From NCBI GenBank assembly GCA_016926155.1, contig JAFGPC010000173.1, forward strand, positions 1 through 35,089: 35,089 nucleotides of DNA, written 5' to 3'. Positions within the stretch are counted from its first letter, which is position 1. The number at the start of each line of letters is the position of its first letter. The notes under the pieces are model-generated. The model had not been told where the DNA came from, did not search any database, and worked only from the letters and a program-made list of their open reading frames with translations. The DNA is from Sedimentisphaerales bacterium. Its GTDB lineage: Bacteria; Planctomycetota; Phycisphaerae; Sedimentisphaerales; Anaerohalosphaeraceae. Both the position numbers and the translations under genes were made by a program. Shown here piece by piece: positions 2,728-33,314 of this stretch.

Positions 2728-2920
2728 TCTGCGACTTGTCCCACTCCTTAACCTGAATCGGCTCCGTCGATGCAAGGGGTGAATACAGTTGCTTCCCAAG
2801 AATTACCCTCAAAACAATAAAGGGAAAATACTGAACGCATTCCAGTAATAATACCTATTTAAAATATTTTTTTAGTTCCTTGCTCTCCTTGCCGATACTC
2901 TAAGTACCTTTAAGATCTTT

Positions 2921-2997
2921 AAGACTGGTTGGGTCTCTATGGCAACCCCGCTGCAAAGCGTAAAATCTCTACCGCCAAACAACCCACCAGTCTTTTT
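2921..2997 (+). ncRNA. Candidate structured RNA element, copy 1 (70 nt plus T tract)
   Basis: AAGACTGG (2921-2928) pairs with CCAGTCTT (2987-2994). A single bulged T at 2929 follows, then TGGGT (2930-2934) pairs with ACCCA (2982-2986), giving a 13-bp closing helix with one bulge. Inside is a CGCT-GCAA-AGCG hairpin with a GNRA tetraloop (2949-2960) and a TGGC/GCCA pairing (2940-2943 with 2974-2977). The 3' strand runs into TTTTT (2993-2997), as in an intrinsic terminator. The direct hexamer TCTCTA occurs twice inside. Whether it is transcribed is not known. Confidence 0.4.
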
Positions 2998-3081
2998 ACT
3001 TTTCTCCCGATTACTATCATTGGGGGGATACTCAAATTATTTCTCAGTATCTCCGCAATCCAATGGGGGAATAAGTCTAAA

Positions 3082-3116
3082 AAGCGACCGGGGAAATACC
3101 GACGCACCGGCCGCTT
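3082..3116. repeat. Imperfect inverted repeat
   Basis: AAGCGACCGG (3082-3091) pairs with CCGGCCGCTT (3107-3116) with one A/C mismatch around a 15-base loop. No T tract follows, so it is not a standard terminator. It lies between the two 70-nt elements. Confidence 0.45.
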
Positions 3117-3309
3117 CGGAGGGGAGAAAATGCTTGGTATCACCCACGAAATGAAGAAAAACCGCCCGCTTTAATTCTCCCCTTCATGTTTCTCCCCTCA
3201 AACGGGGCTTCCCGTCCCTGTGTATATAGTCCCGTATCGCGGGCGGATATTAAAACATACACCAAATCGAACGGATGGCAAGATACTTGGGAAATGGAGA
3301 AGTTTTTTC

Positions 3310-3348
3310 GAAAATCGTTCAAGTGCCCATCGCATTTAAACGACTTTC
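3310..3348. repeat. Long imperfect hairpin
   Basis: GAAAATCGTTCAAGTG (3310-3325) pairs with CATTTAAACGACTTTC (3333-3348): 16 positions with 13 Watson-Crick pairs, one G-T and two mismatches, closed by a seven-base loop. Outside it, AAGTT (3300s) can pair with AACTT (3350s) across a symmetric internal loop, lengthening the stem. Compensated pairing of this length in noncoding DNA suggests a structured RNA or a protein-binding palindrome. Confidence 0.5.
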
Positions 3349-3371
3349 TGGCTAACTTTGGGAAACATTTT

Positions 3372-3445
3372 GACTGGGTGGGTTGCCACAGCAAGCCTTC
3401 TAACCTTAACCTTATCATGCCCTGCTATAAGCCCACCAGTCTTTT
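3372..3445 (+). ncRNA. Candidate structured RNA element, copy 2 (70 nt plus T run)
   Basis: GACTGG (3372-3377) pairs with CCAGTC (3436-3441). A single bulged G at 3378 follows, then TGGG (3379-3382) pairs with CCCA (3432-3435). A TTTT run follows at 3442. The distance from GACTGG to the end of CCAGTC is 70 bases, the same as in the copy at 2923, and the one-base bulge sits at the same place. The interior sequence is largely different, so the shared feature is architecture rather than simple duplication. Confidence 0.35.
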
Positions 3446-3557: not shown

Positions 3558-3998
3558 ATGAAGGTAATTTCTTCATGCATCGTGGGTGTGTTGCTCTTTA
3601 TGGCGGGATGCAGTTCCGATCCGCCCGTCGTGTCTCATGGGAGCGAAGTGCTCAGCGTAGATCCGGCCTTTGCAGAACAAGTCTCTATTGCCCTGGTCGA
3701 TGTACATCGGGAAATGGCACATTGGATTGACAATGAAGACAATACGAAAAGCGATCCGAGTTATAAAGCCGGTTCCCGCCGATGGAAAACCGGGACCGGA
3801 GACAATGAGAAGATAACTTGTGAACGCAGCTATATGGAATTCCGCACGGATAAGGATATTCTGGTTCGGATTGAAACGGTCTTCATCCCGGACCAGACGC
3901 TTCTGGTCTCATTGGATTGTGACGATGAAGAGGAAACCTTCCGGCTGCATAACATGGTTATGGAAAAAATACGTGCAAAGTGCGTAGGGGAAAGCTAA
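3558..3998 (+). CDS. Small predicted lipoprotein of unknown function
   Basis: A 146-residue protein starting at 3558, preceded by GGGGAGG at about 11 bases. The N-terminus (MKVISSCIVGVLLFMAGCSS) is a short signal peptide with a lipobox-like MAGC, so Cys18 would be lipidated and the protein anchored in a membrane facing outward. Met at -3 is a less common lipobox residue. The mature part is acidic and contains two further Cys (in ITCERSY and SLDCDDEE) besides one near the C-terminus (RAKCVGE). I do not recognise a domain. It is transcribed towards the lactonase gene, whose end lies 28 bases away. Confidence 0.7.
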   Translation: MKVISSCIVGVLLFMAGCSSDPPVVSHGSEVLSVDPAFAEQVSIALVDVHREMAHWIDNEDNTKSDPSYKAGSRRWKTGTGDNEKITCERSYMEFRTDKDILVRIETVFIPDQTLLVSLDCDDEEETFRLHNMVMEKIRAKCVGES

Positions 3999-33145: not shown

Positions 33146-33314
33146 CTTCGTTCCCCTTGCCTCATAACCGTTTGTCAATCGGTACGGTTTCCATGATAAA
33201 ACGTAAGAAATAATTCTCAGACAGTCAAAAACCGAACCGACAATCTCTTTCAATGGATGAGTTTCCTGCTTGTGCCTGTCTTTATTTGCTTTTTGGTTCG
33301 ATGGTGATTACAAT

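Follow-up and report, generated by a model that had tools for sequence, protein, structure and literature searches.

The window, that is, the whole 35,089-nt stretch of DNA analyzed here, corresponds to the entire contig C13 of the 5.0-Mb draft genome (222 contigs) of a Sedimentisphaerales bacterium. Between a GH43 gene (1771 to 2727) and a small lipoprotein-like gene (3558 to 3998) lies a gap that holds two hairpins in direct orientation, 449 nt apart, referred to below as copies 1 and 2 (Table 1). As an earlier note on this DNA had reported, both measure 70 nt from end to end, are closed by the same GACTGG/CCAGTC and TGGG/CCCA helices with a single bulged base between them, and are followed by a T run; this description proved exact, and the GNRA hairpin noted in copy 1 is likewise present, although it is private to that copy and not kept in the others described below. 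The helix letters are identical between copies 1 and 2, and when the whole window was scanned for 6+1+4 helices that enclose 70 nt, these 2 sites alone were returned in 35 kb, against 0.15 expected in letter shuffles of the window. On the + strand, copy 1 folds strongly better than its shuffles (-26.1 kcal/mol, z -5.0, equaled by 0 of 200) and copy 2 modestly so (-21.5 kcal/mol, z -2.05, equaled by 7 of 200). One G-C pair of the inner helix of copy 1 is an A-U pair in copy 2.

Two further features of the window were observed. On the - strand between the copies, positions 3075 to 3126 form a strong hairpin with a T run (AAGCGGCCGG...CCGGTCGCTTTTTAG, -20 kcal/mol), preceded by a possible 15-codon open reading frame with a GGGGAG ribosome-binding site; this could be a separate minus-strand transcript. 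A tRNA-Val (GAC) gene lies at 1599 to 1672 with no integrase-like open reading frame seen adjoining it, unlike the tRNA-Val on contig C215.

Table 1. Hairpins, associated elements, and further copies in the same genome (positions without a contig name are those of the window)
Feature	Position	Strand	Description or source
Copy 1 upstream block	2822-2922	+	Homologous to the sequences preceding the C156 and C48 copies
Copy 1 hairpin	2923-2992	+	GACTGG 2923-2928, unpaired T 2929, TGGG 2930-2933, CCCA 2983-2986, CCAGTC 2987-2992
Copy 1 inner helix	2940-2977	+	TGGC near 2940-2943 with GCCA near 2974-2977; from fold and covariance-model alignment
Copy 1 GNRA hairpin	2949-2960	+	CGCT-GCAA-AGCG
T run 3' of copy 1	2993-2997	+	TTTTT
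Copy 2 upstream block	3278-3354	+	Homologous to the upstream block of the C24 copy
Copy 2 hairpin	3372-3441	+	GACTGG 3372-3377, unpaired G 3378, TGGG 3379-3382, CCCA 3432-3435, CCAGTC 3436-3441
T run 3' of copy 2	3442-3445	+	TTTT
C53 full copy	C53:28320-28416		Blastn, own genome
C156 full copy	C156:1180-1300		Blastn, own genome
C48 full copy	C48:56413-56532		Blastn, own genome
C48 partial copy	C48:55226		Blastn, own genome
C136 first partial copy	C136:178-202		Blastn, own genome
C136 second partial copy	C136:568-586		Blastn, own genome
C24 full copy, more diverged	C24:15140-15209		Covariance model R1, E 7e-5

The hairpin also recurs in the rest of the ~5-Mb genome; together with those in the window, six full and three partial copies occupy about nine intergenic places. 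The full copies besides those in the window lie on C53, C156, C48, and C24; the partial ones, on C48 and C136 (two), retain the 3' arm alone. A search for the conserved arm, allowing up to 3 mismatches, returned the already-known places alone, with no control hits. A candidate third copy in the window (33173 to 33249) scored 18.1 bits with covariance model R2 and was gone with R3. Copy 2 had been left out of model R1, which was built from copy 1 and the C53, C156, and C48 copies, and was nevertheless recovered as the fifth-best match in the genome (36.8 bits, E 1e-6 genome-wide). Since a model made without it finds it at this level, copies 1 and 2 are, by sequence comparison, homologous and not look-alikes. 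The earlier note had stressed that their interiors differ greatly, which hides a common origin, as the interior of copy 2 aligns with the C53 and C156 copies (GCCACAGCAAGCCTTCT..AACC versus TCCACGGCAATCCTGCTGTAACC). It had also preferred a shared fold to recent copying; the copying is indeed not recent, but as judged from these alignments the two are old, diverged duplicates of a single sequence. Their shared length of 70 nt is a coincidence, because the other full hairpins measure 58, 75, 75, and 76 nt (range, 58 to 76). Three pairs stand in direct orientation, with spacings of 449 nt in the window, about 385 nt on C136, and 1187 nt on C48. The suggestion that copies 1 and 2 bound one nonautonomous element finds no support in the genome: most copies are solitary, and no part of the sequence that separates copies 1 and 2 recurs elsewhere.

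Homology extends beyond the hairpin. The upstream block of copy 1 aligns locally with the sequences that precede the C156 and C48 copies (scores, 48 and 44; 0 of 300 shuffles each), and that of copy 2 with the C24 block (score, 35; 0 of 300 shuffles), with which the block of copy 1 does not align. The DNA upstream of the C53 copy in turn aligns with that of C156 (1 of 300 shuffles). Because their upstream blocks match different copies, copies 1 and 2 belong to two subfamilies, placed side by side. On the other flank, ~25 nt past the T run is common to some copies, the first C136 copy sharing it with C48 and with C53. Taken at the DNA level, the alignments show a repeat unit of ~180 nt, made up of a ~100-nt upstream block, a bulged stem-loop of 58 to 76 nt, and a T-rich tail on one strand.

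In the four copies closest to one another, differences affect 16 of 204 arm positions and 79 of 233 interior positions, so that the arms have changed ~4 times more slowly than the interior, which shows constraint on the helix. In the six full copies, 89% of the paired cells are complementary, against 32 to 49% when the partner is slid. Covariation beyond chance was not found in these six copies: one pair shows a two-sided change, a number reached in 302 of 500 shuffles. Most one-sided changes remain paired as G.U on the + strand of the window (a U.G in C48, two G.U in C24, and a G.U in C156, C48, and C24). In the same orientation, at least 5 of the 8 bases past the conserved arm are T in 9 of 9 copies, compared with 5.7% of all 8-mers in the gap and with 2 to 3 T on the opposite strand of the six full copies, although tails and blocks descend from one ancestor and the nine copies do not amount to nine independent observations. 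The minus strand, however, folds slightly to somewhat better than the + strand in all six full copies. No convincing sigma-70 promoter was recognized upstream of copy 1 or copy 2, nor any shared sigma-70-type promoter in the upstream blocks. A good sigma-70-like promoter upstream of the C156 copy (TTGACA-17-TACACT) belongs to a neighboring integrase-type element and is not common to the other copies.

The genes around the copies are functionally unrelated and include GH43, a CBS-domain protein, HsdM, GH130, a TRAP transporter, and a pectate-lyase-like gene; the CBS-domain gene is near mraZ/mraW-like genes (mraZ/mraW and pectate lyase were named by eye). It is improbable that the hairpins are transcription terminators of these neighbors, spread by duplication. 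A T-rich tail past a G+C-rich stem would suit that role, and copy 1 follows the GH43 gene, as the C53 copy follows the CBS-domain gene, in the same direction. Yet at the C156, partial C48, C24, and second C136 copies the strand that bears the T tail runs against both neighbors, which argues that the family as a whole does not serve as the neighbors' terminators and, as these four copies have no co-oriented upstream gene, that a transcript, if any, begins in the gap. The upstream block is conserved as well, and a terminator scan calls neither copy 1 nor copy 2, since the loop is too large (~40 nt, versus 3 to 8 nt in a standard intrinsic terminator). The earlier note had also proposed tandem sensors; that copies 1 and 2 are such sensors, cis-acting and riboswitch-like, for the gene at 3558 is very improbable. 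Copy 2 does end about 115 nt ahead of the start of this gene, with a T run that could attenuate read-through, but the other copies have no constant place in 5' leaders or in the leaders of any common gene class, several are antisense to both neighbors, the interior lacks the conservation expected of a binding pocket, and Rfam provides no match.

Two of the contigs carry other elements near the copies. On C156, a ~300-nt stretch (L077:1399-1707) has at its end a sequence resembling a tRNA 3' end and a terminator/promoter region. It is repeated, in whole or in part, three times on C177, ~12 to 14 kb apart, and in part on C215 (L092 to L095 for these two contigs); at one of the C177 places and on C215 it is followed by an integrase-like gene that has a TTGACN-17-TACACT promoter in front of it. 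These stretches look like tRNA-targeting integrative elements in series. On C48, a CRISPR-like array by cas4/cas1-like genes, seen in repeated-frame translations, lies ~2 kb from the partial copy (L078:2500-3600).

Among the genomes searched, these comparisons of DNA show the family in its own genome only. Covariance-model searches of 38 further genomes from the family and 160 from the order (model R1), and of 396 genomes drawn from the class (model R2), gave no convincing copy, with stricter filters, by which weak matches can be lost, in scans over 40 genomes. The weak matches that were examined are coding or apparently so (C57, G352, and G364). A match in one relative (G001:C39; L081:3658-3747) is doubtful: it lies in phage-like DNA and has a perfect 13-bp stem (CAGACCGGCGGGG/CCCCGCCGGTCTG) that resembles the outer arms of the family, at marginal significance (E 0.02 to 0.27). 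This relative apart, matches to the pattern ACAGACYGGYGGGG beyond the own genome, in 148 genomes, look coding or due to chance. Contigs of named public genomes and of viruses, scanned with exact patterns, gave no convincing copy, and the matches there look like chance. When the gap was compared by blastn with 98 genomes, the single match, 28 nt long, had no relation to the hairpins. Plasmids and phages held no convincing copy; the sole match, of 46 nt in a Streptomyces plasmid, concerns tRNA-like DNA outside the hairpin. In the sequences searched, Rfam returned nothing but tRNAs at gathering score and otherwise matches far below it, and apart from these there was none at E<=1 that would point to a riboswitch or other known RNA. 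Of the tests named in the earlier note, the search for further copies succeeded in the genome itself, but neither a convincing copy in relatives nor covariation above chance was found.

That the copies form a diverged repeat family whose bulged stem is conserved is secure, and it is shared by the two leading readings, which fit the data almost equally well. We tentatively prefer a lineage-restricted, multicopy family resembling small RNAs, to which we would assign a probability of roughly 0.4. The new small RNA family that the earlier note had envisaged gains from the further copies in the genome and loses from the lack of covariation above chance. In the proposed scheme, the unit would be a small RNA gene in several diverged paralogues, transcribed from the + strand of the window, with the bulged stem and U tail forming the 3' end of the RNA. 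C/U-rich unpaired stretches, recognized by eye (CUCUCCUU in copy 1, CCUCCUCC and AUCCCCCC in C156, and AUCCCCC in C53), might base-pair with the purine-rich ribosome-binding sites of mRNAs that serve as targets, and duplication followed by divergence would yield related RNAs with overlapping targets. The constrained arms, the T tails, the strand on which wobble pairs form, the conserved upstream block, and the antisense position of several copies speak for a small RNA; the covariation result, the lack of a recognized shared promoter, the long loop, and the slightly better folding of the minus strand speak against it, as do the partial copies with the 3' arm alone, which are not expected of a working RNA. 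The fuller version, a lineage-specific, paralogous regulatory RNA family in this bacterium, which looks planctomycete-like by its gene content, with its ~180-nt unit at about nine places and two subfamilies in the window, acting on many mRNAs via C-rich loops, is rather unlikely.

Alternatively, and this is a serious possibility, the hairpin may be a dispersed repeat of the REP or MITE kind, a short palindrome that was mobilized or copied in the lineage, landed by gene 3' ends, and is now decaying; it would then be a recognition site for a DNA-acting enzyme or have no present function. Such a repeat would be expected to be multicopy, intergenic, and confined to one genome, with strongly diverged copies, some reduced to one arm, and covariation not above chance, all as observed here. 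The hairpin is built on an imperfect ~23-nt inverted repeat, and for the copies on C48 and C24 and the first one on C136 a convergent gene has its stop directly or almost directly alongside. Against this, homology in some copies reaches ~100 nt beyond one arm and ~25 nt beyond the opposite one, so that the inverted arms do not appear to be the ends of the element. No GTAG/CGTC tag was seen beside the stem (the flanks read CTTCA or CTTTA and TGTTTT), nor, by eye, a target-site duplication, and a search of the genome with the 25-base arm (up to 3 mismatches) gave no autonomous relative; no transposase was found either. If transcribed, as in the small RNA reading, the units would form a multicopy small RNA family in a bacterial group with few small RNAs described, and the diverged paralogues would illustrate how families of this kind split. 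Otherwise they would be a new family of small palindromic intergenic repeats, of value as a marker but otherwise ordinary.

Integron attC sites are imperfect palindromes of ~55 to 140 bp with a bulged base and a variable interior. The hairpins share these traits, and three pairs stand in direct orientation, but the outer arms (GACTGG...CCAGTC) do not follow the RYYYAAC...GTTRRRY order, GTTGGGT is on the wrong side, and no cassette array was seen. REP families with a GTAG or CGTC tag are likewise short intergenic palindromes, often at gene 3' ends and some of them bulged, with some families limited to one species and some in planctomycetes (PMC3733652). REPs measure 20 to 40 bp, with stems of 5 to 13 bp and loops of 2 to 20 nt, and often occur in tens to thousands of copies (PMC3733652), whereas the hairpins here span 58 to 76 nt, with a ~40-nt loop (versus <=20), no tag seen, about nine copies, and a long homologous flank. 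For the small RNA reading, the nearest parallel, without a claim of sequence relation, is LhrC1-5 of Listeria (PMC4132741). The LhrC copies differ hardly at all from one another, are expressed, and have been tested, whereas those described here are strongly diverged, in part incomplete, and putative as transcribed units. What the two have in common is several homologous copies per genome, both clustered and single, and a short unit, in our case a putative RNA, with a terminal hairpin and a U tail, seen here as the T-rich stretch on one strand of all nine copies.
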